23,982 nucleotides of DNA from a virus: the IMG/VR virus record IMGVR_UViG_3300010885_035372, positions 1 through 23,982 of that record; one strand, given 5' to 3'. Every line of letters starts with the position of its first letter. The stretch's first letter is position 1. A program made the translations under genes and the position numbers. The notes beneath the pieces were generated by a model, which was not told the origin of the DNA, made no database searches, and saw nothing but the letters and a program-made list of their open reading frames with translations. Shown piece after piece: positions 2,310 to 17,181 of this stretch.

Positions 2310-2337
2310 TAAAGCGAAACGAGAAAACAGCCGAAAA
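2310..2337 (+). promoter_or_regulatory. Sigma-28-like promoter A
   Basis: TAAAGCGA-N12-GCCGAAAA, one base longer spacing than the other sites, preceded by CTCGAAAGTTTTTC as in site D. Predicted leader of about 30 nt to ATG 2375, A/C-rich, ending AACACC-ATG. Confidence 0.6.
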
Positions 2338-2374
2338 AGATAGTACGCAGTTAAAACCACAAATCAAAAACACC

Positions 2375-2701
2375 ATGACGACACTCCTTGAAACTCCAGA
2401 AATTCACCCGATCCTCGCCGCGAAGTTCCTAGAACTAGACGAACATTTTGCGGCATGGGAAGCCAAGCGGGAACTCTGGGCGGATCAGCAAGAAGAACTG
2501 GAAGCCCAGTTCGCCGAAAACTTCGGAGGCTTTGTGCAGGAGAACTTTGAAATCGTACAGGTTGAAAAGGTTTCCGAGCCTGCTCCTGAGCCCTCTCCTG
2601 AGCCTGAACCGGAGATTGTGGCAGAGGTTGTAGAAATCCCTGCTCCTGCTCCCAAGGCCAAGGCGAAAAAGAAATCCGCTCCCAAGAAGAAAAACTCCTA
2701 A
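2375..2701 (+). CDS. Small protein with Pro/Glu linker and Lys/Ala-rich histone-like tail
   Basis: 108 residues. Start chosen at ATG 2375 because the upstream extension in frame would run through promoter A. Three parts are visible: a helical, acidic N-terminal segment (about 1-65; ELDEHFAAWEAKREL, QQEELEAQF), a Pro-Glu linker (about 70-95; APEPSPEPEPE), and a C-terminal tail rich in Lys, Ala and Pro (APKAKAKKKSAPKKKNS). The tail resembles histone H1-like or other nucleic-acid-coating tails. It has its own sigma-28-like promoter and is GC-richer than the late genes. The stop codon is part of TAAAGTTT, a motif repeated after several genes here. A DNA-binding or bridging role is inference only. 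Confidence 0.7.
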   Translation: MTTLLETPEIHPILAAKFLELDEHFAAWEAKRELWADQQEELEAQFAENFGGFVQENFEIVQVEKVSEPAPEPSPEPEPEIVAEVVEIPAPAPKAKAKKKSAPKKKNS

Positions 2702-2774
2702 AGTTTCTTCGCAAGTCGCCCCTTCCCCAAAAGAGGGGGCGAAAGCGAGGTGAAAGAAAGATAAAAGAAATAGT

Positions 2775-2801
2775 TAAAGTTTCCTTGAGTTATTCCGATT
2801 A
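2775..2801 (+). promoter_or_regulatory. Sigma-28-like promoter B
   Basis: TAAAGTTT-N11-TCCGATTA: perfect -35 and spacing, -10 close to GCCGATAA. Drives the 2830 gene. Confidence 0.7.
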
Positions 2802-2829
2802 GAATAGTACAGTCAACCATCCTCATCTT

Positions 2830-3084
2830 ATGAACAACGTCCACGAATTCCTAAACAACGCAGTAAATTCTAATTTCATGTTTTCCAGCGGTGAAGACAA
2901 GGCTCAGGCCATTACACGAGGCAAGGATCTCATCACTCAGCAGATTTTTGAAGCCTTGCAGAAGCGTGATTTTGCGAAGTGGTTCGCTACCGGAGAGTGG
3001 GATGCCTTTATCTCAGCGGACGAAATGGCTCCCTCGGAGTCTGAAATCTTGGTGCAGATCAAAAATCTTTTCAAATTGAACTAA
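2830..3084 (+). CDS. Small unknown protein
   Basis: 84 residues, predicted mostly helical (VHEFLNNAVNSNFMF, KDLITQQIFEALQKRDFAKWF). No membrane segment, no cysteines and no recognised family. Promoter B sits about 28 bp upstream. The leader has no Shine-Dalgarno sequence. Its stop codon TAA is the first three bases of the -35 box of the next promoter (TAAAGTTT at 3082), so gene end and next promoter are fused. GC content is similar to the DUF932 gene that follows. Function unknown; likely an early accessory gene. Confidence 0.65.
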   Translation: MNNVHEFLNNAVNSNFMFSSGEDKAQAITRGKDLITQQIFEALQKRDFAKWFATGEWDAFISADEMAPSESEILVQIKNLFKLN

Positions 3085-3108
3085 AGTTTTCCAAAGTTTT
3101 TCCGATTA
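3082..3108 (+). promoter_or_regulatory. Sigma-28-like promoter C
   Basis: TAAAGTTT-N11-TCCGATTA, overlapping the stop codon of the preceding gene. About 42 nt from the end of the -10 box to ATG 3151, ending in A/C-rich sequence without a Shine-Dalgarno. Confidence 0.75.
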
Positions 3109-3150
3109 GTATAACAGTCAGTTAAATCCAACCCAAAAAAACCAAAACAT

Positions 3151-4161
3151 ATGGCACACCAAATCACCATCAATCAGAACGGCGAAGCAGAATTCTTTTG
3201 CGCGAAACATCAGGCATGGCATGGGCTCACCGAGCCTGTACCTCAGAATGTCACTTGGCAGGAAGCCAAGCGGATCTCAAAATTGAACTTCATTTACGAG
3301 GAAGTTCCCTGCTTCCATCAGTTGCCTGACGGACGTTTGCAGAAGATCGAAGGCAAAAAGGTCATCCGCCGCTCGGATACAGGCGAGGTGATGTCTGTAA
3401 TGGGCAGTAAATTCCGCTGTATTCAGGTTGACGAATTGATGGAGTTTGCGGATTCGATTGTGGGTTCTGGTCAGGCCGTCTGGAATTCCGCTGGCTCGCT
3501 CTTCGGAGGTCGCAGGATTTTTGCGAATCTTGAATTGGAAGGAAAATTGTTCGTCAATAATAATCCTGACGACACCACAACCAAGAATGTCATGGTGACA
3601 AATGCCAATGATGGCACAGGCGCATTGGTCATCATGGTCGCTGGCATCCGCACGGTTTGCTGGAATACCTGTAATGCGAACCTCAAGTCTGGATCAGAAA
3701 ACATGATCAAGATTTATCATCGCTCAGGGTTCGAGCGGCGCAAGCTGGATGCCCAGAAAGCCTTGGGTCTTGCTCTGGCTTACTACGACGAATTTCAGGA
3801 AGCAATGAATCAGCTTGCCGCCGATCAGGTTTCCTCTTCCTACGTCGAGGGGTTCATTAACGCCCTTATTCCCGCCGAGAAAGATGCTGATACTGGCAAG
3901 GTTGCCAAGCGCACCTTGGATCGGCGCGACCAGATTGACACCCTGTTCCGCACTGGCAAAGGCAACAACGGAGAAACAAAATGGGATTTGTTTAACGCCG
4001 TGACCGAGTACGTTGACCATCATTCCAACGGTCGCCTATCCAAGGAAACCAAGCTGGAAGGAAATGACGAGTTCTTCAAAATGGAACAAAGGTTCGACCG
4101 AGCCATCTTCGGGACTGGCGCAGTGCTGAAGCAGCGGGCAATGGATCTCCTCCTGAACTAA
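3151..4161 (+). CDS. DUF932 phage/plasmid-like protein
   Basis: 336 residues, matching the DUF932 family (phage/plasmid-like, TIGR03299) in length and layout. The N-terminus has the typical AWHGLTEPV segment (about 21-31). Then come VIRRSDTGEVMSVMGSKFRCIQ (about 70-92), a central Gly-rich region with GGRRIFANLELEG, a VMVTNANDGTGAL block, and the characteristic VCWNTCNANLKSG near residue 170. Proteins of this family are common in phages and conjugative plasmids; their biochemical role is not established. It has its own sigma-28-like promoter (C) and ends at a strong intrinsic terminator, so it is an independent transcription unit. The gene is about half G+C by eye, well above the late genes, suggesting acquisition from a GC-richer source. 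Confidence 0.85.
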   Translation: MAHQITINQNGEAEFFCAKHQAWHGLTEPVPQNVTWQEAKRISKLNFIYEEVPCFHQLPDGRLQKIEGKKVIRRSDTGEVMSVMGSKFRCIQVDELMEFADSIVGSGQAVWNSAGSLFGGRRIFANLELEGKLFVNNNPDDTTTKNVMVTNANDGTGALVIMVAGIRTVCWNTCNANLKSGSENMIKIYHRSGFERRKLDAQKALGLALAYYDEFQEAMNQLAADQVSSSYVEGFINALIPAEKDADTGKVAKRTLDRRDQIDTLFRTGKGNNGETKWDLFNAVTEYVDHHSNGRLSKETKLEGNDEFFKMEQRFDRAIFGTGAVLKQRAMDLLLN

Positions 4162-4171
4162 ACGCAAGAAC

Positions 4172-4209
4172 AAAACCCGCCCACACCGTAAAAAGTGTGG
4201 GCGGGTTTT
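4172..4209 (+). terminator. Intrinsic terminator after DUF932 gene
   Basis: 11-bp GC-rich stem (CCCGCCCACAC / GTGTGGGCGGG, 4176-4186 and 4195-4205) with an 8-nt loop, then TTTT pairing back with AAAA. Confidence 0.9.
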
Positions 4210-4237
4210 CTGTTTTCTTTAGCCGAAAGATTTTTTT

Positions 4238-4348
4238 CTTTTCGCTTGTTTCGGAAAAGTTTCGGGGATACTCTATTCACAGGAGAATTCTACAGATATT
4301 TCCCCGTGTTTTCCGAAACAAGAAAAGAACTCTCCTGTGAATAGAGTA
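4238..4348. repeat. Interlocked pair of long inverted repeats
   Basis: Inverted repeat 1: 4238-4258 pairs with 4309-4327 (19 bp with a 2-nt bulge), extended by CGGGGA 4263-4268 with TCCCCG 4301-4306. Its loop (4269-4300) contains element 4269-4291. That element is complementary at 22 of 23 positions to 4326-4348, which follows the stem directly. The order L1-L2-R1-R2 gives pseudoknot or mutually exclusive pairing. It lies in the gene-free stretch 4210-4524. The 23-bp element is also the ACTCT-N9-AGAGT dyad found at 2148-2225 and 7055-7077. Confidence 0.75.
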
Positions 4349-4393
4349 GTCTCGGCGCGATGAGATTACGAGCACAAAATAAAAAAAGATTTC

Positions 4394-4421
4394 GCTAAAG
4401 TTTTTTGGATTCAAGTTCTGT
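4394..4421 (+). promoter_or_regulatory. TAAAGTTT element with non-consensus -10
   Basis: TAAAGTTT-N11-GTTCTGTG followed by CCA. The same combination occurs at about 8179-8205. The -35-like half is perfect, but CCGA is missing. It may be a degenerate promoter or a different regulatory site. Confidence 0.3.
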
Positions 4422-4456
4422 GCCAGCTTCAGAGAAAAGATTCTCGAAACTTTTTC

Positions 4457-4483
4457 TAAAGAGAATCAGAAAACAGCCGAAAT
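4457..4483 (+). promoter_or_regulatory. Sigma-28-like promoter D
   Basis: TAAAGAGA-N11-GCCGAAAT, preceded by ATTCTCGAAACTTTTTC as in site A. Leader of about 35 nt ends CAACACC-ATG. Confidence 0.7.
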
Positions 4484-4524
4484 AATATGTACGGACGAGA
4501 AGTCCTAGCAACCCAACCAACACC

Positions 4525-4884
4525 ATGAAACACCAGATTCGTTCAACAGTAGTTTTCCTCGGCCAAGATTATGATCGCAACACCCAGTGGCTTTCACAGG
4601 CCAATAAATGGGCGGGAATTAATCGTATCGAGCGCACTCGCTACACCATCCGCCATGATGCAGAGGTGACCGTGGAAATGATCGCAGAAGATTGTTTCTG
4701 CGTGTTCAATGCTCCTGACGAGGCTTTGAGCGAAAACCAGCTTAGAAGGCGCGGAAACTACCGTGGCGTTTCGCTATCGGTGGGAGATATTGTTCAGATT
4801 TTCAGGAGCGGAGTCTTGGTCGCTGAAGCCCTGTGTGATTCTATGGGCTGGCAGATCCGAGACACGCTGGTCGAGATTTCCTAA
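4525..4884 (+). CDS. Unknown protein, YodL/LPD-like C-terminal motif
   Basis: 119 residues. The N-terminal half alternates beta-like strands (RSTVVFLGQDYD, RTRYTIRHDAEVTVEMIAED). The C-terminal half contains NYRGVSLSVGDIVQI (about 78-92), which resembles the GRSLSVGDVV block of YodL-like/LPD-type domains in phage and plasmid proteins, but I cannot confirm the family without a profile search. It starts after the A/C-rich leader of promoter D, with no Shine-Dalgarno. The stop is again embedded in TAAAGTTT. GC-richer than late genes. Function unknown. Confidence 0.65.
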   Translation: MKHQIRSTVVFLGQDYDRNTQWLSQANKWAGINRIERTRYTIRHDAEVTVEMIAEDCFCVFNAPDEALSENQLRRRGNYRGVSLSVGDIVQIFRSGVLVAEALCDSMGWQIRDTLVEIS

Positions 4885-4902
4885 AGTTTCACTAAAGTTT
4901 TC

Positions 4903-4938
4903 TCGCCCTCTGAAAATGGGGGCGGGAAAACTTTTCCC
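4903..4938 (+). terminator. Hairpins downstream of the 4525 gene (weak terminator)
   Basis: CGCCC/GGGCG hairpin followed by the perfect dyad GGGAAAA-C-TTTTCCC (4924-4938), then AAAGTTTTTC. The first resembles the terminator at 7644 but lacks its T-tract, so termination is probably partial. Confidence 0.4.
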
Positions 4939-4948
4939 AAAGTTTTTC

Positions 4949-4975
4949 TAAAGAGAATTAGTTTCCCGCCGAAAT
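4949..4975 (+). promoter_or_regulatory. Sigma-28-like promoter E
   Basis: TAAAGAGA-N11-GCCGAAAT, then AATAAGTAG. Upstream of the 5045 gene, together with an extended -10 site at 4999. Confidence 0.7.
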
Positions 4976-4998
4976 AATAAGTAGCCAGAAATAGCATG

Positions 4999-5007
4999 TG
5001 CTATACT
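4999..5007 (+). promoter_or_regulatory. Extended -10 promoter
   Basis: TG-C-TATACT, without a clear -35. Shares ATGTGCTATA with the site at 6512. It gives the 5045 gene a second, sigma-70-type start with a leader of about 30 nt. Confidence 0.45.
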
Positions 5008-5044
5008 GGTAGAGAAGAAAGAAACCACCCAAAAATCACACACC

Positions 5045-5398
5045 ATGCCCTTCCTCATCCATCCCCACCATCCCACCCTCGTCTGCTCTGGAAAAGACCC
5101 AATTTTTGGGTATCTCAATGCACTGCATCTGTGCCGCGAAATGATCGGCATGCACTCCGTGCAGATTTTGTTTGATAGCCGTCCAGTCTCAACGCCAGAG
5201 ATTTTTAATGAAATGCTGCGACCCTTCTGTGGTGTGTTCCCATCTGGTATGGATCGCGAGAGCATGCTGGACATTCTGGACACGCTTCTGGATTATGGGT
5301 GGATAAACAGAGAGCCAGCGGGGCTCAATCAGATGATGGCGGATTTTATAGACCTTATCGAGATGCGGGTCATGCTCGAAGAAGAAGAAGCCGTTTAA
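5045..5398 (+). CDS. Unknown protein
   Basis: 117 residues. The N-terminus is His/Pro-rich (FLIHPHHPTLVCSG). The remainder is acidic and probably helical (SMLDILDTLLDYGWI, MMADFIDLIEMRVMLEEEE). No membrane segment or known motif. Start at ATG 5045 is preceded by CACACC, the same SD-less context as the 2375 and 4525 genes. It has two candidate promoters (sigma-28-like E and extended -10) and ends just before a terminator hairpin at 5414, so it is its own unit. Function unknown. Confidence 0.65.
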   Translation: MPFLIHPHHPTLVCSGKDPIFGYLNALHLCREMIGMHSVQILFDSRPVSTPEIFNEMLRPFCGVFPSGMDRESMLDILDTLLDYGWINREPAGLNQMMADFIDLIEMRVMLEEEEAV

Positions 5399-5413
5399 AT
5401 CAAAACAGAATCT

Positions 5414-5450
5414 CTTTCGGGAAGAAGTTACTAATTCCCGAAAGTTTTTC
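5414..5450 (+). terminator. Intrinsic terminator fused to next promoter
   Basis: 10-bp stem CTTTCGGGAA/TTCCCGAAAG (5414-5423, 5435-5444) followed by TTTTTC. The next base begins the -35 box of promoter F. Confidence 0.75.
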
Positions 5451-5477
5451 TAAAGTTTCCCAACATTCAGCCGAATA
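5451..5477 (+). promoter_or_regulatory. Sigma-28-like promoter F, leaderless
   Basis: TAAAGTTT-N11-GCCGAATA: both boxes near-perfect. The -10 ends only 6 nt before ATG 5484, so the transcript should start at or within 1-2 nt of the start codon. Confidence 0.75.
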
Positions 5478-5483
5478 CTTATT

Positions 5484-5732
5484 ATGACCACCACCATATC
5501 CAATCTAGAAAAATTCAAAACAGAATTAGAATCTCAGTATGTCAGGCTTTTTGAAACTCCTGAATATGAATTCTCAGCTTCTAGGACTACTCCCAAAGCC
5601 TTGGCAGATAAAATGGTTTATAGTCTTAAAGTTAATGGAGCTAATAAAGATGGCAAAGGTATTAAGAATACCTGTAAAGTATTAGGAATTAAGAATACTT
5701 ATAAAGGAATCTCTGAATACCTTAATTCTTAA
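5484..5732 (+). CDS. Small unknown protein
   Basis: 82 residues, Lys/Asn/Thr-rich, with two halves: a helical N-terminus (NLEKFKTELESQYVRLF) and a C-terminal segment with the imperfect internal repeat IKNTCKVLG / IKNTYKGIS (about 62-78). No recognised domain. It is clearly AT-richer than its neighbours 2375-5398, yet has the same sigma-28-like promoter, so promoter type does not follow base composition. Probably co-transcribed with the SprT-like gene 15 bp downstream. Function unknown. Confidence 0.65.
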   Translation: MTTTISNLEKFKTELESQYVRLFETPEYEFSASRTTPKALADKMVYSLKVNGANKDGKGIKNTCKVLGIKNTYKGISEYLNS

Positions 5733-5747
5733 TTAATATTATATTCC

Positions 5748-6209
5748 ATGACTCAAGAAGAAGAATATTATGTTAACAAGACTAACAGTCTTCTGAAATA
5801 TTATAAGCTCAGAGGTTGGAGATGTCAATTAAATTCTTTGTCAAGGAATATTAATGGCAGATGTTATTATAACATTAAAGTTATAGAGCTATCTACATTT
5901 CTTATCCAGTACGGAGATGAGCATGAAATTAATGATGTTATATTCCATGAGATTGCTCATGCATTAACACCTAATCATGCACATGATGAAGTCTGGAGAG
6001 CTAAAGCAATAGAATTAGGTAGCAATGGAGAAAGATATTCCAGAGTGTTTGCACCTTATAAGTACACAGCAAAATGTAATATATGTAAAATGGTTTATGG
6101 TAGGAACAAACCTGCTCTTAAACCTCTGGTATGTTCCTTGTGCTTAAAGAATACTCATTATGATAACATGGATCGCATCATGCTCACGTTCCAGCGAACA
6201 AATCAATAG
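5748..6209 (+). CDS. SprT-like zinc metalloprotease
   Basis: 153 residues. Zinc-protease motif HEIAH at residues 67-71 (His67, Glu68, His71), third ligand candidates His77/His79 in NHAHDEVW, and a C-terminal zinc ribbon with Cys110-x2-Cys113 and Cys129-x2-Cys132. This order (HExxH, H-x3-W, four-Cys ribbon) is that of SprT/Spartan-like domains, which in eukaryotes cleave DNA-protein crosslinks. Phage copies are common, but their targets are unknown. It likely forms a two-gene operon with the 5484 gene. The C-terminal codons run into intergenic repeat copy 2, so the end of the gene has been fused to or overwritten by the repeat. Confidence 0.85.
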   Translation: MTQEEEYYVNKTNSLLKYYKLRGWRCQLNSLSRNINGRCYYNIKVIELSTFLIQYGDEHEINDVIFHEIAHALTPNHAHDEVWRAKAIELGSNGERYSRVFAPYKYTAKCNICKMVYGRNKPALKPLVCSLCLKNTHYDNMDRIMLTFQRTNQ

Positions 6210-6336
6210 TAAAATCGCGTGGTTATAATAAACGCGAAAATATAATAAACTCGTCACCTCGTCAAAAAAAGCTCACTTGTGCATACAAGCCTAGCGCGTG
6301 TACCCACAAGCCTAGCACATCCACGAGAGAGCTGGG
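6183..6336. repeat. Intergenic repeat, copy 2
   Basis: Tandem partner of copy 3 with an offset of 163 bp; also matches 1448-1590. Contains two ATAATAAAC(G/T)CG motifs and two CACAAGCCTAGC sub-repeats, ending CACGAGAGAGCTGGG. Its first 27 bp are the last codons of the SprT-like gene. Confidence 0.85.
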
Positions 6337-6345
6337 CGTATCACA

Positions 6346-6499
6346 CTCACATTCCAGCGAACAAGTCAATAGTAAAATCGCGTGTATATAATAAACGCGA
6401 GGATATAATAAACTCGTCACTTCGTCAGAAAAACCTCACTTGTACACACAAGCCTAGCGCGTGTACCCACAAGCCTAGCACATCCACGAGAGAGCTGGG
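6346..6499. repeat. Intergenic repeat, copy 3
   Basis: Nearly identical to copy 2. It ends just before the extended -10 promoter at 6512. A long open frame across copies 2 and 3 (6279-6587) is low-complexity translation of the repeat and not a gene. Confidence 0.85.
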
Positions 6500-6511
6500 G
6501 GCGCATGTATG

Positions 6512-6520
6512 TGCTATAAT
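6512..6520 (+). promoter_or_regulatory. Extended -10 promoter
   Basis: TG-C-TATAAT, the best -10 in the window. No -35 is seen. It lies directly after repeat copy 3 and would transcribe the structured region 6527-6612. Confidence 0.55.
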
Positions 6521-6526
6521 GTTTTT

Positions 6527-6640
6527 AGCGTTCAGGGGCGGGTTTAAAGGCCGATTATCGTGTTCCGAGTGTCACGATAGCGGATAAGGCGGAAGATGGC
6601 CTAGAATCCCCTCAGGATCGCTGGAAAAGAGAAGAAAGAA
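6527..6640 (+). ncRNA. Candidate structured RNA or 5' leader
   Basis: Downstream of a strong -10, three nested complementarities can be drawn: AGGGG 6534-6538 with CCCCT 6608-6612; AGGCC 6548-6552 with GGCCT 6598-6602; TATCGTG 6556-6562 with CACGATA 6573-6579 (10-nt loop). No open frame with coding character is present. There is no terminator before the 6680 gene, so it may be a long leader rather than a separate RNA. It does not fit a tRNA (no T-arm). Confidence 0.35.
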
Positions 6641-6645
6641 AAAGC

Positions 6646-6672
6646 TAAAGAAATCCAAGAAACAACCGAAAT
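6646..6672 (+). promoter_or_regulatory. Sigma-28-like promoter G
   Basis: TAAAGAAA-N11-ACCGAAAT. The -10 ends 7 nt before ATG 6680, predicting a leaderless or near-leaderless mRNA. Confidence 0.6.
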
Positions 6673-6679
6673 AAAGAGT

Positions 6680-6937
6680 ATGGGAAACAACATCCGAATC
6701 CGCGAAGTGAAACCGAAAACCATCCTGCTCAAGAATAGTTTTCACAATACTCAAATCAGAATTAAATTTAAGAGCTGGATGAACCAGTACAATCCTCTGG
6801 ATACTTATATGTACATGTGGTACAGGGCGACCCACACGGGAATTCCTGACCAGAAGCTGACGATGCGGCAGGTTCGCCGAATCCAGAAAAAACTTTGCGG
6901 ATCAGCCGATTGTCGATGTGGCACAGTCCTCCCTTAG
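6680..6937 (+). CDS. Small basic unknown protein
   Basis: 85 residues, basic, with aromatic YMYMWYRATHTG in the middle and a C-terminal helix RQVRRIQKKLCGS followed by DCRCGTVLP. Three cysteines near the end (C-x4-C-x-C) could bind a metal, but I recognise no family. Promoter G abuts the ATG and there is no ribosome-binding site. A second, distal promoter at 6512 could add a structured leader. A strong terminator follows at 6976. Function unknown; the Arg/Lys content would suit nucleic-acid binding. Confidence 0.65.
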   Translation: MGNNIRIREVKPKTILLKNSFHNTQIRIKFKSWMNQYNPLDTYMYMWYRATHTGIPDQKLTMRQVRRIQKKLCGSADCRCGTVLP

Positions 6938-6975
6938 AGTAAAGCAAAAAGTTTGTTAGTGGTGTGTTGGCATAT

Positions 6976-7025
6976 TACCCAGCGTGCATGATCGTGGTGG
7001 ACATGCACGCTGGGTATCTTTTATT
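6976..7025 (+). terminator. Strong intrinsic terminator
   Basis: 15-bp stem TACCCAGCGTGCATG / CATGCACGCTGGGTA with an 11-nt loop (6991-7001), followed by TCTTTTATTTT. Confidence 0.85.
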
Positions 7026-7054
7026 TTGTGTATATTTGCCCTGAATAGAAGTGC

Positions 7055-7077
7055 AAAACTCTCCTGAGAACAGAGTA
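7055..7077. repeat. Third ACTCT-N9-AGAGT element (unpaired)
   Basis: Matches 2203-2225 at 20 of 23 positions and 4326-4348 closely, but has no inverted partner nearby. It is followed, as in the other cases, by an A/T-tract and a sigma-28-like promoter (H). Confidence 0.65.
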
Positions 7078-7134
7078 AGCAGAATTCTAGGGGTGGACAA
7101 GCCCTATTTTCAGAAATCTTTTTTTATTTTCTGC

Positions 7135-7161
7135 TAAAGATTGGCGGGATTCTGCCGACTT
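7135..7161 (+). promoter_or_regulatory. Sigma-28-like promoter H
   Basis: TAAAGATT-N11-GCCGACTT, then AATAAGTAG as in site E. Leader of about 40 nt to ATG 7208. Confidence 0.65.
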
Positions 7162-7877: not shown

Positions 7878-7904
7878 TAAAGATATTCTGAATGTTTCCG
7901 AATA
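7878..7904 (+). promoter_or_regulatory. Possible sigma-28-like promoter I
   Basis: TAAAGATA-N11-TCCGAATA with the usual spacing, but it overlaps the ATG of the small ORF at 7892. Either the ORF starts later or the match is fortuitous. Confidence 0.4.
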
Positions 7905-8106: not shown

Positions 8107-8319
8107 ATTTTGCCCGACCCTCGCAGCACAGACCATGCCACCTAGCGAAAAAGAAACTTTTTAAAAAAGCTAAAGTTTCTATAAAACAAGTTCTGTGCCA
8201 AGTGCCGAGCGTTTTAATTTGCACTATGCGTAAGAAACATGAAAAGGGGGGAGGGGGGGATGCCACAAAAATTTTTTTAGTATTTTTTAAATATTTTTTC
8301 ATAAAGGCAAAATTTTCAA
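8107..8319. other. Gene-free stretch with TAAAGTTT element and G-tracts
   Basis: Contains TAAAGTTT-N11-GTTCTGTG (about 8179), identical in its right half to 4394-4421, and two adjacent G-tracts (G6-A-G7, about 8245-8259). The frame of the downstream gene stays open across it, but the residues look non-coding (poly-Gly, poly-Phe). The TAAATA promoter places the real start at 8331. Confidence 0.45.
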
Positions 8320-8325
8320 TAAATA
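8320..8325 (+). promoter_or_regulatory. T4-like late promoter, N5 to ATG
   Basis: AATAAATA followed by CTCCT and ATG 8331. No Shine-Dalgarno sequence. Predicted leaderless. Confidence 0.7.
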
Positions 8326-8330
8326 CTCCT

Positions 8331-8918
8331 ATGTTTAACAAAGACAATTTAATTATAGAAAGTTTATATATAAATAAAGTTATTAAGGAAAATGCCAATC
8401 CACATCATCATGAGTATTCTGGTATAAAACTATATAACGAAACTTTAAAGTCCATGACCAGACAACAAGTAGAGCAATGGGTAGATGATATCTATACCAA
8501 AATGGATGATGCAGTAAAACGTGGAGAAGTTAAATCGTTTTCGGCTGAACACATGAACTTACAACCTGATGGGTTAAATAGAGCATTACAGATTTATACT
8601 ATAATGGGGGTAGCAAAAGAACCTGACACCGCACTAGCTAATAAGAAACCTTATAAAGTTACCGATGGTAGAGATTGGTTTAATACTTTAAATACCGATA
8701 CGGATTACTTTGCAAAAATAAACGGAAATCCTTGTTTCTTATTCAAAAGAGAATATGATGATAGTATGGATGAAAACTATGATGACGATGATGATGATAA
8801 GCCAATGGCATGGGTATGGGCAATAGAAAATCTATTCAACCCCGAAGAAGGAGAGATTGAAACTAATTCTAATGAATTCGCAGAAGCTAGAATAGAATAT
8901 CTAGGAGAAGAAGTTTAG
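8331..8918 (+). CDS. Unknown late protein with N-terminal LIxExY-type motif
   Basis: 195 residues. Start at ATG 8331 is fixed by the late promoter 5 nt upstream; the longer upstream frame is discarded. The N-terminus MFNKDNLIIESLYINKVIKE resembles those of the proteins encoded at 8941 and 13135. There follow helical segments (RQQVEQWVDDIYTKMDDAVKRGE) and a very acidic stretch DENYDDDDDDK (about 145-155), then a short C-terminal domain. No enzyme motif is visible. The late promoter and the shared N-terminus suggest a virion-associated or head-internal protein, which is inference. It converges on the 8941 gene. Confidence 0.7.
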   Translation: MFNKDNLIIESLYINKVIKENANPHHHEYSGIKLYNETLKSMTRQQVEQWVDDIYTKMDDAVKRGEVKSFSAEHMNLQPDGLNRALQIYTIMGVAKEPDTALANKKPYKVTDGRDWFNTLNTDTDYFAKINGNPCFLFKREYDDSMDENYDDDDDDKPMAWVWAIENLFNPEEGEIETNSNEFAEARIEYLGEEV

Positions 8919-8940
8919 ATCACGCAAAGATATCCCGTAA

Positions 8941-10011
8941 TTAAATCACATCGTATAGTATCTCGCCTATGCAATTTTCTATGGCTTGATCTATTTGATC
9001 GGCTATATATTCCTCGATGTTTAATAGATTCCTTCGAGCTTGTTTAAGTTCGTGTAATCCCGGTGAATTATCAAATTCTTCTTTCGAATAGCGTTCATTT
9101 AAATCTTGGATAAAAATTTGTATAGTTTTTTCATCCATCATTTTATTAAAAGTTATTTTACCAGTCTGCATTAACTGAGCAACCAATTCTTCGTTTTTAT
9201 CGCTTACTACTAATTGACCATTTCTAGCCGATCCAAACGTAAATAATTTGGTATAGAAATTTTTTGGTTCTCTGTAGAATTTTTCTAGTCGATACAATTC
9301 TGTATCTTTAACTATACTCGTTAATACTGGAAAATCTTGTTCTCGGTTTTCAAGACTATGCCACATTCTTAATGATTCGTTGAAAAGTCCATAATATTCT
9401 TGTAATGTTTTAGAGATATTTTGATCAAATTGAAAATTCTTTTTATTATCTAGAATGGCATGTCCACATTTATGTGATCTTATCCACGAAGAAAATGCCA
9501 TCATGCCAGATCTTTCTTCTTGTCCAGAAGGAGTCATGATCACAGTAATTCCATTTGGATCGTGTAATTTTTCTCTAACTGTTGGATTATTATTAACTAA
9601 ATTTTCAAGATCACTTTTCTGTATTAGAGATTTGGTCTGGACATCATTATAATGATAATAACTTAATTGTTCTAAATTTGCGTCTACTAATCTCCATATT
9701 AAAGGTGATTTTCCTTGCATTTGTCTTCTTCTATCTAATCCCTTGGCTGTACCTCTGGATACTGTAGAACGCATTAAATCTTTTGCTTTTTCACTACCCC
9801 ATGCATTGATATCAGAACGAACAGATTTAGATATAGTTCCTAACATATGAGGTTGGGATCTTACTACGGGTTTGAACTTTGGATCTAGTTTACTAGTTAG
9901 TTCTGGATAATCTCCAAGAAATTCCAAACTAGCAGGCATTTCGGATAATATTTCAGATCTATTAAATATATCTTTTTTATATCTTTCCCAAATTAGCTGC
10001 TCGTCATTCAT
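8941..10011 (-). CDS. Zincin-like protein with altered HxxxH motif, paralogue of the 10370 gene product
   Basis: 356 residues. The N-terminus MNDEQLIWERYKK is a phage-type N-terminal motif. The core (about 155-295) aligns with the product of 10370-11143: SSWIRSHKCGHAI (His180, His184), then FTFGSARNG (about 257-265) and EELVAQLMQTGKITFN (Glu275). Spacing of HxxxH and a downstream ExxAQ helix recalls gluzincin/ImmA-like metallopeptidases, but Lys181 replaces the catalytic Glu of HExxH. So it is either an inactive protease fold, a metal-binding structural protein, or an unrelated domain. It ends with a long helical C-terminus. A TAAATA promoter lies 6 nt upstream of the ATG, overlapping the stop of the 10017 gene. 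Probably virion-associated. Confidence 0.7.
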   Translation of the reverse strand: MNDEQLIWERYKKDIFNRSEILSEMPASLEFLGDYPELTSKLDPKFKPVVRSQPHMLGTISKSVRSDINAWGSEKAKDLMRSTVSRGTAKGLDRRRQMQGKSPLIWRLVDANLEQLSYYHYNDVQTKSLIQKSDLENLVNNNPTVREKLHDPNGITVIMTPSGQEERSGMMAFSSWIRSHKCGHAILDNKKNFQFDQNISKTLQEYYGLFNESLRMWHSLENREQDFPVLTSIVKDTELYRLEKFYREPKNFYTKLFTFGSARNGQLVVSDKNEELVAQLMQTGKITFNKMMDEKTIQIFIQDLNERYSKEEFDNSPGLHELKQARRNLLNIEEYIADQIDQAIENCIGEILYDVI

Positions 10012-10016
10012 AACGA

Positions 10017-10367
10017 TTATTTACCTTTGCTCTTAATATACACTTCTCCCCAGACTTCCAGTTCTCCCATGACCGTTTGAAATTCTTTTTGTGTCATGGT
10101 TTTCCAGCTCTTGAGCCTTGATAAACATTTCTCGGCTTCTTTTAAATAGTACTTTTCTTTGTTTTCTTCTGTGCTATGTTCTAATGCCTTCTTATATGGA
10201 ATCTCTTTTGCCTTGAAATGTTGAGCCGTTAAGATCGAGGCACCACCCTTGGCTTCGGCACTTTTTTGAATTTTCTCGGCACCCTTTTTTCGGATTTCGA
10301 GGAATTCCATGAATTTATCCTTTTTGGATTCTAATATAGTTTGTACTAGATTATTAAAAGTTTCCAT
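10017..10367 (-). CDS. Unknown late protein, basic and helical
   Basis: 116 residues, Lys/Glu-rich, predicted almost entirely helical. The N-terminus METFNNLVQTILESKKDKF has an ILE-S sequence that would fit a T4-type prohead-protease site ([LI]xE, then a small residue). Then come GGASILTAQHFKAKEIPY (about 41-58) and a Lys-rich C-terminus ending KSKGK. It lies between the two zincin-like paralogues, 2 nt after the stop of one and 5 nt before the start of the other, so all three form one minus-strand operon. Start ATG 10367 has no promoter of its own; translational coupling is likely. Function unknown. Confidence 0.65.
   Translation of the reverse strand: METFNNLVQTILESKKDKFMEFLEIRKKGAEKIQKSAEAKGGASILTAQHFKAKEIPYKKALEHSTEENKEKYYLKEAEKCLSRLKSWKTMTQKEFQTVMGELEVWGEVYIKSKGK
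10018..10023 (-). promoter_or_regulatory. T4-like late promoter, N6 to ATG
   Basis: GGTAAATA on the minus strand, 6 nt before ATG 10011, overlapping the stop codon of the upstream gene. Confidence 0.5.
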
Positions 10368-10369
10368 AA

Positions 10370-11143
10370 TTACATTAAAAATATTTTACCTACAGCCATT
10401 GATAGTATATCATCGAAATGATATTGCATTTGATTTCCTACTTCTTCTGCCACAAATTTATCTGGAACCGGATTAAAATTAATTGATCCAGTCATCATAT
10501 ATTGTGCAAAACATTCAAATATGAATTCATATGGTCTTGTTATCCTGTTCATTCTTGCGGATCTGAATGTTCCTAGCTTATGAAGCACCCTTCTTAAACT
10601 TTTTCTTTTCTCTGGATCATTAAAATAAGAGAAGTCTACGTTGTAATAATCTCTTAAATTACGATTTAAATCTTTTTCAAAATAATCCCATTTTTTATTG
10701 AATTCCACATTTCTTAATCTACTGCGATATAAAACATGTCCTATACGATGACAAATCATCCAAGGAGTTAAAGGAACCTTATCATCTCCTACATTGTTGG
10801 TAAAAACTATATTAATCGTATTCTCCATGTTGGGATTTTGTTCAATAACCGAAAAATCCACATCTGGTATTAATGTTTTAAGTGTTTCCACACTGATGAT
10901 GCCATATTCTCTGTGTTGTTGTGCTTTTTTTGATTTGGCGAAATAAAACGAAAAGTTATAATCTAAATCTTTAGCAATTTCTGCTTTTGCCTTCTGTAGA
11001 TATTTGTCGTTCGTCAATAATGCTATTGATGGCGCATCGTATTTTTGTTTCTTTTCTTTTTGTTTTGGATCAGTCCACCCAGAACCTATTGTCATGATTT
11101 CATCAACAGGTGCTTCAGTAAAGAATTGCTTAAAAGACTGCAT
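10370..11143 (-). CDS. Candidate internal head protein: capsid-targeting N-terminus plus zincin-like domain
   Basis: 257 residues. The N-terminus MQSFKQFFTEA closely matches the capsid-targeting sequence of T4 internal proteins (MKTYQEFIAEA in IPIII), which directs proteins into the prohead and is cut after Glu by the gp21 protease. The rest carries WMICHRIGHVLYRSR (His132, His136), GTFRSARMNR (191-200) and EFIFECFAQYMMTGSINFN (Glu206/Glu210), the same block as its paralogue at 8941. Arg133 replaces the catalytic Glu of HExxH. A packaged, injected protein with a protease-like fold is the suggested reading. First gene of a minus-strand late operon, with its late promoter inside a perfect palindrome shared with the divergent 11177 gene. 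Confidence 0.75.
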   Translation of the reverse strand: MQSFKQFFTEAPVDEIMTIGSGWTDPKQKEKKQKYDAPSIALLTNDKYLQKAKAEIAKDLDYNFSFYFAKSKKAQQHREYGIISVETLKTLIPDVDFSVIEQNPNMENTINIVFTNNVGDDKVPLTPWMICHRIGHVLYRSRLRNVEFNKKWDYFEKDLNRNLRDYYNVDFSYFNDPEKRKSLRRVLHKLGTFRSARMNRITRPYEFIFECFAQYMMTGSINFNPVPDKFVAEEVGNQMQYHFDDILSMAVGKIFLM

Positions 11144-11179
11144 GGGATTATTTAGATTTATATTATAAATAATCCCATG
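11141..11179. promoter_or_regulatory. Divergent late promoters inside a perfect 14-bp inverted repeat
   Basis: 11141-11154 and 11166-11179 are perfect reverse complements (14 bp each) with an 11-nt spacer. Each arm reads TAAATAATCCCATG outward: TAAATA, 5 nt, then the ATG of a gene with a capsid-targeting N-terminus. Promoter, predicted start point and start codon are thus duplicated as one unit. Confidence 0.8.
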
Positions 11180-11575
11180 TTCACCTTTAAACAGTTCTTT
11201 TTAGAAGCTATTAAACTCACTCCTTCAGATCACAAGATTGGTGAATATATTAAGATTGTTAATTCATGGGGTTATCCGAATCCATTTGAGCCCAATCTAT
11301 TCGTGATTGATAATTGTAATTTAAATCTACAAAACCATAGAAATAAAGCCCACATCTCTTTTATATAAGCCTTAGAAAAGAATAAAAGACACGGAACGAA
11401 TCTTATGAATCGTTTAATTCATCTGGCCGATGAGATGTCTGTGACTTTATCGCTTAATCCCGATCCAGTTGGTAATAATTCGATGCACTATAAAAAATTA
11501 ATCAAATGGTACAAAACTTTTGGTTTTGTTGGTAATCTAAGTGGTATGATCCGCGAACCTAAGATTAATAAGTAA
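11177..11575 (+). pseudogene. GNAT-like acetyltransferase with capsid-targeting N-terminus, interrupted by an in-frame TAA
   Basis: The frame opens with MFTFKQFFLEA (T4 IPIII-like capsid-targeting sequence) and stops at TAA 11366-11368 after 63 residues. Without a frame shift it then continues for another 68 codons to TAA 11573-11575. The downstream part (LEKNKRHGTNLMNRLIHLAD, then KKLIKWYKTFGFV) has the motif A/B layout of GNAT acetyltransferases. The break falls just before the acetyl-CoA-binding loop, in the middle of the conserved core, so a nonsense mutation (one base from AAA, CAA or GAA), readthrough or a sequence error must be considered. If intact, it would be a small acetyltransferase packaged into the head, analogous to T4 Alt in being injected with the DNA. 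The late promoter lies in the shared palindrome. Confidence 0.7.
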
Positions 11576-11591
11576 TAAAAATTTTTATAAC

Positions 11592-11597
11592 TAAATA
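11592..11597 (+). promoter_or_regulatory. T4-like late promoter, N6 to ATG
   Basis: ACTAAATA, then AAAAGA and ATG 11604. No Shine-Dalgarno. Confidence 0.7.
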
Positions 11598-11603
11598 AAA
11601 AGA

Positions 11604-12632
11604 ATGGATCAGATTTTACAAAAACATCTTGTGGAGAAGTTAATGCTTCACAAACCTGATCTCATAAAAGCCGCTACGTCTCCCATGGATTGTATCTCCT
11701 ATCAATCCTGTAAATTTTTAGACGAATCGTATCATATCAAAACCGATTCTTATACAATAGTCACCAAAGTTTTGGGATACTGGAAAGATAAACCCATCGT
11801 TCTACATAATTCCCATAAATATGTCCTACTGGAGAATTCCAAATCTTTAGTTAATCTAGATAACTTTGGTGATAAAAAGATCGTTCCTGCAAGCGCAAAA
11901 AGTACACGATTCTTTCAGAAAAACTCAACTATTGAGGCTCCTGTGAAAGAGCTTCCCAAAGTTGTGGAAGAACCAAAAATCGAGGTTACGCCAGAGCCTA
12001 AAAAAGAATTACCAGAGCCTGTTAAAAAGGTTGAAACAAAACAGATTTATAAAACAGTATCGGTTGTTCCCGAAACTAAACCGACCCAGAATTATATTTC
12101 AGGATTAAGATCACAGGACGAAAAATTACCCGAGATCACCAAGTCCGAAGATGCCGAAGAAGCTTTCTTTGATATTCTAGAAACTAAAAAAGACGATCCT
12201 AGAATTAAAAAGTTTTTCAACTATCATGCCGATCAAGCCAAGAAAGAATTGTTTTCCATAACTGAAAAGTTTACGCAACAACAAATGGCTAGGGCTATGG
12301 AAAGCGGTGGTGGGACAAATTCCGTTCAGTATGCCAACGGTGGTACGATGCATGGAGATTTAATTGTTGATGGTAATTTAACCGTAACCGGAACCTCAAA
12401 CACAGGCGGAGGAACCACAAGTAATAAAAAAGTTTTCACCGTGGGTGATGGAGTTCATAACGAATATACCCTACTTCATTCATTAAACACCAAAGATATC
12501 ATAGTGAGTGTTTACGATTCAGATTATGAATCTGTACTAGCCTATATCAAAAATATCTCGTTAAACGAAACTCGTATTTCGTTCGGTAATATAATCCCCG
12601 TGGATTCGATTAAAGTAGTAATTATGGGTTAG
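11604..12632 (+). CDS. Virion structural protein (fibre/neck-like)
   Basis: 342 residues in clear sections. 1-110 is a globular N-terminus with beta-like strands (SYTIVTKVLGYWKDKPIVLHNSHKYVLL). About 111-170 is a Pro/Glu/Lys-rich linker (PEPKKELPEPVKK). 175-235 is helical. About 240-275 is a Gly-rich segment with GGTMHGDLIVDGNLTVTGT, a repeat type of phage fibres and baseplate beta-helices. About 280-342 is a beta domain starting VFTVGDGVHNEYTLLHSLNTKDIIV, typical of small virion decoration or fibre-attachment domains. Hence a late structural protein; exact position in the particle is unknown. Its stop overlaps the stop of the convergent 12629 gene by 3 nt. Confidence 0.75.
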   Translation: MDQILQKHLVEKLMLHKPDLIKAATSPMDCISYQSCKFLDESYHIKTDSYTIVTKVLGYWKDKPIVLHNSHKYVLLENSKSLVNLDNFGDKKIVPASAKSTRFFQKNSTIEAPVKELPKVVEEPKIEVTPEPKKELPEPVKKVETKQIYKTVSVVPETKPTQNYISGLRSQDEKLPEITKSEDAEEAFFDILETKKDDPRIKKFFNYHADQAKKELFSITEKFTQQQMARAMESGGGTNSVQYANGGTMHGDLIVDGNLTVTGTSNTGGGTTSNKKVFTVGDGVHNEYTLLHSLNTKDIIVSVYDSDYESVLAYIKNISLNETRISFGNIIPVDSIKVVIMG

Positions 12633-12907
12633 ATGCCGGGAAGATTACTGAAGAATTGTGTTCTGTAATAAATGTCGCCGCTTCCTGTTGCGCTCAACTG
12701 AGAAGAATTGATCAATCCACGGAAAGTAAATTCTTCGCCAGAAAGTAACTGAAAACCCACACTGGGATTCTGATGATCATAAATTAAAACCGTTCCACGA
12801 GGCTTTACGATAACTTCGGAGCATTCTTGTGCGGAAAAAGCTTGCATAGACACAGAAGCACTAAGTTTAAATGTTTTGCAAATATTACGGTTATACTGGA
12901 TAGACAT
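12629..12907 (-). CDS. Small beta-rich late protein
   Basis: 92 residues, predicted all-beta (ECSEVIVKPRGTVLIYDHQ, VGFQLLSGEEFTFRG, SGDIYYRTQFF). No signal peptide, membrane segment or known motif. The sequence pattern (short strands with Gly/Asn turns, few charges) suits a virion decoration or fibre-tip protein. Promoter TTAAATA lies 6 nt upstream of ATG 12907. It converges with the structural gene 11604-12632 and overlaps its stop. Function unknown. Confidence 0.65.
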   Translation of the reverse strand: MSIQYNRNICKTFKLSASVSMQAFSAQECSEVIVKPRGTVLIYDHQNPSVGFQLLSGEEFTFRGLINSSQLSATGSGDIYYRTQFFSNLPGI

Positions 12908-12913
12908 ACAAAT

Positions 12914-12919
12914 TATTTA
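12914..12919 (-). promoter_or_regulatory. T4-like late promoter, N6 to ATG
   Basis: ATTAAATA on the minus strand, then ATTTGT and ATG 12907. Divergent from the promoter at 12929-12934. Confidence 0.65.
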
Positions 12920-12928
12920 ATGATTTGT

Positions 12929-12934
12929 TAAATA
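12929..12934 (+). promoter_or_regulatory. T4-like late promoter, N7 to ATG
   Basis: GTTAAATA, then TTATCAT and ATG 12942. Heads the 12942-13850 operon. Confidence 0.6.
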
Positions 12935-12941
12935 TTATCAT

Positions 12942-13133
12942 ATGGCCGACAAAAATAATACACGTCAACGAATTCAATACACCCTATGTTCGAATAAAAC
13001 ATGCTGCCCTGTATTATCAGAAGTTTCTGATGGTAAATTTGTTCTTACTGATGATTATGAAGGTAAAGTTCAACTCACCCAAGAAGAACTTTTACTTCTT
13101 AAAAATTTCCTAAATAAAACTTTCGAGGATTAA
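12942..13133 (+). CDS. Small Cys-containing phage protein
   Basis: 63 residues. The N-terminal half has LCSNKTCCPVLSEV (three Cys, C-x4-CC) followed by DGKFVLTDDYEGKVQLTQEELLLLKNFL. This pattern of a CCPV cluster, a short beta hairpin with DDxG and a C-terminal helix is familiar from small hypothetical phage proteins; no function is known. An overlapping frame at 12925 is rejected because the late promoter points to ATG 12942. First gene of a tightly packed operon; the next start codon follows one base after the stop. Confidence 0.65.
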   Translation: MADKNNTRQRIQYTLCSNKTCCPVLSEVSDGKFVLTDDYEGKVQLTQEELLLLKNFLNKTFED

Positions 13134-13134
13134 T

Positions 13135-13518
13135 ATGCAGAACAAAGACACAGTTCTTCTGTCGGAGATTTATAAGACTCAGATTCTAAATGAGAATTTA
13201 GAAAATATTCCAGTAGATCCTCTCATACTAAAAATAGATCTTAAAAGAACTTTTAAGCTATCGATGATTAATGATCTTAAATTCATTGCCCGAGGACGTG
13301 AGATTGTCAATAAACTTTTTGCCAACGAAACCTTGGCAAATCAACTTTTAGATGAAGTTCTTGAGAATAATAATCCAGAAGATACACAAGTTTCTGTAGA
13401 TTTCGAAGCAGGTGATTTGTTCTTTAAATTTAAAGACGATGATTACAAAGAACATCAATTTCAAGTAGAACTAGCCACTGATTCAGAAGGAAACGTGGTT
13501 GATTATAATATTTTCTAA
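13135..13518 (+). CDS. Unknown late protein with N-terminal phage motif
   Basis: 127 residues, acidic. The N-terminus MQNKDTVLLSEIYKTQILNE belongs to the same type seen at 8331 and 8941 (hydrophobic pair, Glu, Tyr, then a second hydrophobic-x-x-Glu). The middle is helical (RGREIVNKLFANETLANQLLDEVLE). The C-terminus is beta-rich and acidic (QVSVDFEAGDLFFKFKDDD). No enzyme motif. It begins 1 nt after the preceding stop, and its stop overlaps the next ATG (TAATG), so translational coupling is likely. Virion association is inferred from operon and N-terminus only. Confidence 0.65.
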   Translation: MQNKDTVLLSEIYKTQILNENLENIPVDPLILKIDLKRTFKLSMINDLKFIARGREIVNKLFANETLANQLLDEVLENNNPEDTQVSVDFEAGDLFFKFKDDDYKEHQFQVELATDSEGNVVDYNIF

Positions 13519-13850
13519 TGATTCTTTATTACTGGATAGCCGCAATCGGAATGTGTTGGATCATGAAATATGGTTCAATCTTAGAATCTTTTCGTGCTTA
13601 TACAGCTTCGGTGTTCGCTCCTTTGGCGAAATTATACAAATGTTGTCTGTGTATGGGATTCTGGGCGGGAATATTATTAATTCCTTTCTTGGTAATTGAC
13701 GGAAATTGGGATATAGAAGTTATTCTATTTCCATTTACTTGTTCGGCTGTTTGTTGGATAGCTGATAGCTACATCACATATATTCACAATAAATCATTTT
13801 ATTACGATTCGTTGTCTTCTTCGTCAAATTCAGAGAAGCCAAGTAAATGA
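13518..13850 (+). CDS. Membrane protein with CxxCxGFW motif
   Basis: 110 residues with hydrophobic segments at about 2-15, 47-63 and 70-88. Between the first two is KLYKCCLCMGFWAGILL: C-x2-C-x-GFW at the start of a transmembrane helix, as in small phage and bacterial membrane proteins of unknown function (DUF1360-like appearance). The C-terminus is polar and Ser-rich. Third gene of the 12942 operon, coupled by TAATG. Its last 49 nt overlap the end of the convergent 13802 gene. It could act at the host membrane during late infection; not assigned. Confidence 0.65.
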   Translation: MILYYWIAAIGMCWIMKYGSILESFRAYTASVFAPLAKLYKCCLCMGFWAGILLIPFLVIDGNWDIEVILFPFTCSAVCWIADSYITYIHNKSFYYDSLSSSSNSEKPSK

Positions 13851-14164
13851 TGCATTAGTTTTTCAAAATGAGATTTGGTTTCGTCGTTCCATGATCCCTC
13901 ATCGATTTCTTTTTTGAAGAATTTAATTAATAGTTCGGCTTTTTTAGAATCAGAAAATTCCTCATCATCGGGAAACATAACTTTATCACCAAATTGTGCC
14001 ATATCTGAATCTCTGGCTCCTGTGGAAGGACCATTTCCCGGTCCACTCATGGATGCAGTAACTTGATATGAATTTTTAACATCGTTGGTGGGTGTATTGG
14101 TGAATTCCTTCAACAAAACTTGTTTCTTATAAATGTCACCCATGTGATAAAAACTGATATCCAT
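13802..14164 (-). CDS. Unknown acidic late protein
   Basis: 120 residues. Start set at ATG 14164 rather than 14170 because TAAATA lies exactly 5 nt upstream of it. The N-terminus MDISFYHMGDIYKKQVLLKEF, a low-complexity Ser/Gly/Pro/Asn middle (SMSGPGNGPSTGARDSD), then a helical acidic C-terminus (KKAELLIKFFKKEIDEG, SHFEKLMHHLLGFSEFDEEDNES). No known domain. Divergent from the 14190 gene through a palindromic promoter, and overlapping 49 nt with the convergent 13518 gene at the 3' end. Function unknown. Confidence 0.65.
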   Translation of the reverse strand: MDISFYHMGDIYKKQVLLKEFTNTPTNDVKNSYQVTASMSGPGNGPSTGARDSDMAQFGDKVMFPDDEEFSDSKKAELLIKFFKKEIDEGSWNDETKSHFEKLMHHLLGFSEFDEEDNES

Positions 14165-14168
14165 GAAC

Positions 14169-14185
14169 ATATTTAGCCTAAATAT
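14169..14185. promoter_or_regulatory. Divergent late promoters in an ATATTTAG-C-CTAAATAT palindrome
   Basis: A near-perfect palindrome gives TAAATA on both strands (14079+100 to 14184 plus strand; 14070+100 to 14075+100 minus strand, that is 14179-14184 and 14170-14175). Each is 5 nt from its ATG (14190 plus, 14164 minus). Same design as 11141-11179, with a different spacer. Confidence 0.75.
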
Positions 14186-14189
14186 TCAC

Positions 14190-14438
14190 ATGAAGTTTGA
14201 CGAACTGGTGAATATGTTTATGGAGGAATTCAAGAGTAATGGGTATAATGCATACTCAACACTTAATTCTCCAAAAGTATCAAATCAAGGCCCCACCAGA
14301 TCTAATAATAAAGGTTATAAAAGATTAAATGATTTTAAAGGAACTCGTGGTGAATTTGACGAGAACGAACCATTGCCAGAAGATTTAGGTAAAATGTTCT
14401 ATCAAGCCAAGCCAACAAAGAAGAGGAGAAGAAAGTAA
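14190..14438 (+). CDS. Small basic late protein
   Basis: 82 residues. Start set at ATG 14190 by the late promoter 5 nt upstream; the ATG at 14163 would place the promoter inside the gene. The N-terminus MKFDELVNMFMEEF is an amphipathic helix of the kind found at the front of many T4-like virion proteins. The rest is polar and basic (RSNNKGYKRLNDFKG) and ends KPTKKRRRK, a strongly basic tail suggesting nucleic-acid contact. No family recognised. Confidence 0.65.
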   Translation: MKFDELVNMFMEEFKSNGYNAYSTLNSPKVSNQGPTRSNNKGYKRLNDFKGTRGEFDENEPLPEDLGKMFYQAKPTKKRRRK

Positions 14439-14466
14439 TTGATCTGAAGTGAAACTGTGGTAAGAT
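14439..14466 (+). promoter_or_regulatory. Sigma-70-like promoter, leaderless
   Basis: TTGATC-N16-TAAGAT with TG at the extended -10 position. Six nt to ATG 14473, placing the predicted start point on the start codon. Confidence 0.55.
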
Positions 14467-14472
14467 CGATGA

Positions 14473-14840: not shown

Positions 14841-14873
14841 GGACGACTCTCAAAAGTCTAAATAGACAAAGCT

Positions 14874-17177: not shown

Positions 17178-17181
17178 TAAT

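Follow-up and report, generated by a model that had tools for sequence, protein, structure and literature searches.

Phage promoters that depend on a host sigma factor are already a known kind, and several described systems offer points of comparison. Early transcription in T4 starts from sigma-70 promoters of very high strength (PMC2988021), phages phiEco32 and 7-11 separate their gene classes through alternative sigma specificity (PMC8948821), and in Bdellovibrio FliA is a global regulator of most attack-phase promoters, a FliA-like motif, TTAAG-N16-CCGATA, being present in 92 of 140 (PMC3627812). Here, we analyzed the IMG/VR virus record IMGVR_UViG_3300010885_035372 over its whole length of 23,982 nucleotides (nt; referred to as the window), which has no known ends and is a fragment of a T4-like phage. 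Between 2.3 and 7.6 kb, the window carries a module in which each transcription unit is preceded by a copy of one composite element, TAAAG and CCGA separated by 15 nt (N15) or, once, by 16 nt. Comparison with bacterial sequences supports promoters of the flagellar sigma-28 type (FliA/sigma-D class) as the best reading of these sites, and we consider it probable that this module of about 5 kb of small genes, each unit under its own sigma-28-class promoter, is read by RNA polymerase carrying the sigma-28 of the host (E-sigma-28).

As with T4 early promoters, the promoters are numerous and separate in this prereplicative-type gene block of a T4-like phage, each small operon having its own, but the sites lack a TTGACA/TATAAT pair in register; a scan for TTGACA-N17-TATAAT gave no strong pair at the eight sites, and one 9/12 pair overlaps the site at 5451. 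The likeness to phiEco32 and 7-11 lies in the use of sigma specificity to set phage gene classes apart, whereas no sigma gene was recognized in the window and the motif is of the host flagellar type. Bdellovibrio attack-phase regulation is the nearest concept, being a large nonflagellar regulon under a FliA-like motif, although that regulon consists of bacterial genes and its spacing, as printed, differs slightly. The sites themselves resemble flagellar sigma-28 promoters in the -35 TAAAG, the -10 (G)CCGA, the N11 spacer between the full boxes, the C before the -35 box, and the A/T-rich tail, and the same extended pattern is found in Gemmatimonadota flagellin and flgM promoters. Unlike flagellar promoters, the phage sites would drive mostly unassigned phage genes. 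Searches of an open-access library, which lacks most subscription journals, turned up no report that assigns a whole phage module to sigma-28.

A repeated element upstream of each transcription unit

A preliminary description of this DNA had listed eight sites, and all eight were recovered where it placed them (Table 1). Exactly 11 nt separate the two 8-mers in seven of them, as had been claimed, corresponding to N15 between TAAAG and CCGA; the site at 2310 has N16. TAAAG and CCGA are present in 8/8 sites, a C precedes TAAAG in 7/8, and a G precedes CCGA in 5/8, with a conserved form of C-TAAAG-N15-CCGA-(A/T)(A/T)-TAATA-n-GTA. The TTT that was said to follow TAAAG is present in only 3/8.

Throughout the window, TAAAG-N15-CCGA occurs nine times on the plus strand and never on the minus strand, a reversed-pattern control gave no matches, and all nine copies fall within 2.7 to 7.9 kb, with the N16 copy at 2310. 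The region from 2.0 to 8.3 kb contains 26 TAAAG and 38 CCGA sequences, which form nine pairs at a spacing of 15; elsewhere in the range of 5 to 40, no spacing has more than one pair. Among 3,000 dinucleotide shuffles of this region, the mean was 0.04 N15 pairs and the maximum was 2. When spacings of 14 to 17 were counted over the whole window, 11 pairs were observed versus 0.94 expected (maximum, 5).

We also applied a leave-one-out weight matrix, in which the tested site was left out of training and then ranked against every untrained position of either strand. The top rank went to five of the seven N15 sites; those at 3082 and 5451 came second, outscored by the 2310 site alone, which has one more base in its spacer and is picked up in the register of the -10 box. 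Two other exact cores were rejected as members of the array. The core at 7878, which had been put forward as a possible ninth site, ranks fifth and is unsupported beyond its exact core, and that at 6545 ranks 166th.

Every transcription unit of the module has one site, with CCGA 9 to 72 nt before the start codon. The sites precede the genes starting at 2375, 2830, 3151, 4525, 5045, 5484, 6680, and 7208; the gene at 5748, second after 5484, probably shares the site of the latter. No supported site lies elsewhere in the window, and the sites stand upstream of genes and on the coding strand only.

Correspondence with bacterial sigma-28 promoters

The sites were scored against the Escherichia coli FliA consensus, TAAAGTTT-n11-GCCGATAA. 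Their agreement with the two full octamers is 10 to 14 of 16 positions, and scores of up to 13 arise by chance within the window. A proven sigma-28 promoter, that of E. coli aer (TAAAGATA-n11-GCCGACAT), is FliA dependent (PMC2859248), and its match to the octamers is about equally incomplete. Changing T1, A3, or G5 of the aer -35 box, or its CCGA, reduces FliA-dependent activity (PMC2859248), and the bases required in aer are those that are invariant across the phage sites. As aer deviates from the textbook consensus in the way the phage sites do, the literature supports these deviations.

An exact search for the strict extended pattern, with G before CCGA, across bacterial and archaeal genomes totaling 257 Gb returned four matches. 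One lies in a Gemmatimonadaceae genome and is the promoter of the anti-sigma-28 gene flgM (Pfam FlgM, E = 6.6e-8); another is intergenic in a Spirochaetaceae genome; and the remaining two lie in two Pseudoalteromonas genomes, inside what is apparently the same gene. A slightly looser pattern gave three hits and no control hits in 64 Gemmatimonadota genomes, and all three stand directly before flgM (one hit) or flagellin (two hits; Flagellin_N, E = 8.7e-29 and 3.3e-27). The signal in Spirochaetota was weaker (7 hits in 296 genomes versus 1 control hit, mostly within genes), and a stricter pattern gave no hits in 299 Pseudomonadota genomes. The core, its spacing and orientation, the position before start codons, the matches to flagellar promoters, and the deviations seen in aer all fit the sigma-28-type promoters of the preliminary description.

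Several observations weigh against the proposal that the host factor reads a sigma-28-type module. The -10 box is often GCCGAAAT, which is near the GCCGACAT of aer, and not GCCGATAA. T4-like relatives at approximately 60% NrdA identity lack the array. The sole contig that confirms the assembly spans 15.5 to 24.0 kb, and the module lies outside it. Finally, the record is a 24-kb fragment, and a phage-encoded sigma-28-like factor could lie beyond its ends.

Origin of the sites

A 58-nt block is common to positions 2287, 4434, 4926, and 5428 (60 to 78% identity) and covers the sites at 2310, 4457, 4949, and 5451. Spacer identities reach 11/15 between 2310 and 4457, 10/15 between 2775 and 3082, and 9/15 between 4457 and 4949, compared with 8 at the 99th percentile of random spacers, and the 6646 spacer is identical at 9/15 positions to those of both 2310 and 4457. 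Given these shared blocks and the excess spacer identity, the array therefore grew partly by duplication. The earlier statement that the spacers are unrelated and that recent duplication is not involved thus holds only in part; 7135 looks independent in origin. Overall, the eight sites may trace back to about three or four separate origins, and the spacing held at 15 among diverged copies points to selection.

The partial duplication of four blocks would also suit repeats that are not promoters at all and instead either are bound by a phage regulator or represent a CTAAAGTTT repeat linked to stop codons. Indeed, CTAAAGTTT without a CCGA partner is found at 2273, 2698, 4395, 4881, 4892, and 8170, and several of these overlap stop codons, directly so at 2698 and 4881. 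Yet bacterial flagellin and flgM promoters also have the N15 spacing, a C ahead of TAAAG, the TAATAnGTA tail, and a location before start codons, a likeness that would not be expected of a regulator site, and we regard this explanation as very unlikely.

TABLE 1 Predicted promoters and genes of the module and of the adjoining phage backbone
Feature	Coordinates	Strand	Remarks
Putative sigma-28-type promoter core TAAAG-N16-CCGA	2310..2334	+	40 nt upstream of ATG 2375; top leave-one-out score in -10 register
Gene, 108 amino acids (aa)	2375..2701	+	No Pfam/PHROG match
Putative sigma-28-type promoter core TAAAGTTT-N11-TCCGATTA	2775..2798	+	
Gene, 84 aa	2830..3084	+	No Pfam/PHROG match
Putative sigma-28-type promoter core TAAAGTTT-N11-TCCGATTA	3082..3105	+	TAA doubles as stop codon of preceding gene
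DUF932 phage/plasmid protein, 336 aa	3151..4161	+	Pfam PF06067, E = 1.3e-43; phrog_1221, E = 1.5e-63
Putative sigma-28-type promoter core, -10 GCCGAAAT	4457..4480	+	
Gene, 119 aa	4525..4884	+	Weak YodL-like match, Pfam PF14191, E = 1.9e-4, below curated cutoff
Putative sigma-28-type promoter core, -10 GCCGAAAT	4949..4972	+	
Gene, 117 aa	5045..5398	+	No Pfam/PHROG match
Putative sigma-28-type promoter core TAAAGTTT-N11-GCCGAATA	5451..5474	+	CCGA to ATG only 9 nt
Gene, 82 aa	5484..5732	+	Probably first in two-gene operon
SprT-like protein, 153 aa	5748..6209	+	Pfam PF10263, E = 8.1e-10; 15 nt past preceding gene, without own promoter
Exact core match without flanking motif	6545..6568	+	Probably chance
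Putative sigma-28-type promoter core, -10 ACCGAAAT	6646..6669	+	CCGA to ATG 10 nt
Gene, 85 aa	6680..6937	+	No Pfam/PHROG match
Putative sigma-28-type promoter core, -10 GCCGACTT	7135..7158	+	
Gene, 138 aa	7208..7624	+	phrog_7302, E = 3.2e-10
Possible ninth site	7878..7901	+	Exact core only; overlaps start of open reading frame (ORF) 7892-8053
AT-rich T4-like backbone (NrdA, NrdB, ClpP-like, ThyX, others)	8300..23982		No sigma-28-type site; TAAATA boxes

Apparently separate promoter classes within the phage

Genes outside the module carry a different signal. TAAATA stands within 25 nt of the start codon in 13 of 25 such genes (about 0.02 per gene expected), with 11 of the 13 boxes located 5 to 7 nt before the start codon, and neither TAAATA nor a TATAAATA-like late box precedes any of the nine module genes. 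This is the arrangement of T4 late promoters, placed in this phage almost on the start codon, and it would give nearly leaderless late messages. With TAAATA boxes outside the module and sigma-28-type sites inside it, the phage apparently separates at least two classes of promoter.

Sequences resembling sigma-70 promoters are also present within the module. An extended -10 element, TGCTATACT, lies near 5003, downstream of the 4949 core. Intergenic repeats of 163 nt, 69 to 91% identical and rich in TATAATA, occupy 1439 to 1601, 6174 to 6336, and 6337 to 6499; together with an extended -10 element, TGCTATAAT, near the end of the last copy, they are possibly sigma-70 promoters.

Inverted repeats of the form TACTCT...AGAGTTCT / AGAACTCTCC...AGAGTA with long loops were observed at 2148 to 2226 and 4269 to 4348, where they fold far better than shuffled sequences (z = -4.7 and -5.3), and a single half-site is present at 7053 to 7078. 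These TACTCT repeats sit 80 to 190 nt upstream of three of the sigma-28-type promoters. RNA structure was rejected as the conserved feature of the array, as the promoter regions fold only weakly, apart from 5405 to 5477.

Recurrence in other viral contigs

In T4-like relatives found through NrdA, the motif occurs about as often as expected by chance (11 of 26 records contain 15 matches in total, versus 7 for the control), and within its own T4-like clade the array is apparently peculiar to this phage. Three strict motif scans of viral contigs returned single sites only, mostly due to chance or inside genes. Searching IMG/VR viral contigs for the exact FliA consensus TAAAGTTT-N11-GCCGATAA gave at least 120 stretches. 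In the 120 stretches listed, cores other than the one searched for fall at a spacing of 15 in 51 cases and 16 in 31 cases, with a handful elsewhere. Thirty whole records, a biased choice because they were picked for having two or more sites, together contain approximately 166 cores versus 22 reversed controls.

The placement of the canonical viral sites differs from that of pairs at other spacings: 18% versus 49% lie inside long ORFs, and 46% versus 15% have a start codon and Shine-Dalgarno sequence within reach. Of 163 viral sites, 60% have a C directly before TAAAG. The clearest array (L196, in record G698) has ten promoters on the same strand in 4.6 kb, each followed, approximately 60 nt on, by the start codon (ATG) of a different small gene, in a record that encodes phage RecT-like and replication-initiation proteins. 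Another array has seven promoters in 8 kb (L230/L301, in record G710) alongside genes for a tail-fiber-like collagen protein and an amidoligase, and further unrelated phage contigs with arrays of the canonical FliA consensus include G700, G701, G702, and G714, among others. In 14 of 183 viral sites (L201, L239, L248, L250, L256, L277, and others), TTGAC falls within the spacer and TAnnnT follows 16 to 18 nt on, which by sequence is a sigma-70 promoter built over a sigma-28 one. It is about an even call whether sigma-28-type arrays, sometimes over a sigma-70 promoter, represent a recurrent strategy by which unrelated phages couple a gene block to the flagellar sigma factor of the host.

Proposed transcription of the module

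We propose that flagellar sigma-28 (FliA/sigma-D class) is present in the polymerase pool of the host and that the module would be transcribed by E-sigma-28 from the eight similar sites, starting approximately 8 to 10 nt after CCGA. Each small operon would then receive its own message; that of 5484 is predicted to be leaderless because its ATG lies only 9 nt after CCGA, and that of 6680 would be leaderless or nearly so. The remaining phage genes would use the separate T4-type late promoter, TAAATA immediately before the ATG. The module resembles a phage early region, and early timing is presumed from this likeness. Under this scheme, the module would depend on the motility state of the host.

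The sigma-28 in use is most likely that of the host. If it were instead a phage-encoded sigma-28-like factor, the sites would still be sigma-28-type promoters, but the module would form a middle-class regulon and not a host-dependent early one. The search for a sigma gene suggested in the preliminary description gave none among the Pfam/PHROG matches of the window proteins searched, which covers the 24-kb fragment and leaves room for such a gene in the rest of the genome. Phages with their own sigma factor exist, as phiEco32 and 7-11 demonstrate (PMC8948821), relatives without the array would then also be without the factor, and the sigma-70-like extended -10 elements in the module could serve an earlier class. 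A sigma region 2 match was found in just 4 of the 30 viral records with sigma-28-type sites, and the only one over the cutoff is a short ORF of 143 aa whose likeness to a T4-type late sigma was judged by inspection alone; as these records may be fragments, this is weak evidence against a phage factor. Such a factor could also drift from the FliA consensus, yet other phages hold that consensus exactly. We therefore consider a phage-encoded factor unlikely.

If the host factor does read the module, part of the phage program would be expressed only, or most effectively, while the cell is assembling flagella. The outcome of infection would be tied to motility state, with the anti-sigma-28 factor FlgM as a control point of infection, and phages of flagellated hosts could be recognized from sequence. 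The module genes, nearly all of which have no assigned function, would constitute a new phage gene class to study. In other phages, overlapping sigma-28/sigma-70 promoters would act as a hedge for motile and nonmotile cells.

Genome context and candidate hosts

The window encodes a class Ia ribonucleotide reductase (NrdA and NrdB), a ClpP-like protease, and ThyX. Its NrdA is approximately 51% identical to that of T4-like cyanophages and approximately 60% identical to that of a large group of uncultured viral contigs, and a second viral contig (L010) is identical to the window over 15,510 to 23,974. The recognizable products of the module are the DUF932 protein, the SprT-like protein, and the phrog_7302 member; the rest of the module encodes proteins without an assigned function. 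Relatives of the DUF932 protein and of a 257-aa protein were sought in viral contigs, and none were found.

The G+C content is approximately 0.31 until 2 kb, 0.46 from 2 to 8.2 kb, and 0.33 afterwards, and the module lies inside the G+C-richer stretch, which dips to 0.31 at 5.5 to 6.0 kb. The rise at 2 kb and the fall near 8.2 kb, with no second contig across either border, could indicate that the module originated outside the T4-like phage, either as an island recently gained from another phage or through joining during assembly, in which case the sigma-28 promoters would belong to another element. However, AT-rich stretches not only flank the module on both sides but also occur within it (5.5 to 6.2 kb), and the 163-nt repeat is common to the AT-rich side (1439) and the module (6174 and 6337). 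We give a foreign origin very little credence and retain the module as part of the T4-like phage.

A Bdellovibrio host was rejected: phi1422, the one Bdellovibrio phage inspected, has no N15 site in the first 40 kb of its 45.4 kb, and the window is nearly without Shine-Dalgarno sequences. A cyanophage host is not supported, psbA being absent from 30 relatives. The DUF932, SprT, and phrog_7302 proteins match many actinophages but at only 27 to 38% identity, which is little informative.

Two adjacent proteins on the minus strand (8941 to 10011 and 10370 to 11143), neither of which has Pfam or PHROG matches, are possibly related, sharing by eye a GHAILD/IGHVLY-like stretch. Shine-Dalgarno sequences are nearly absent before genes in the window, in its T4-like relatives, and in Synechococcus phage S-SSM7, and their absence was accordingly discarded as a host marker. 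By contrast, the array phages L196 and G710 do have Shine-Dalgarno sequences.

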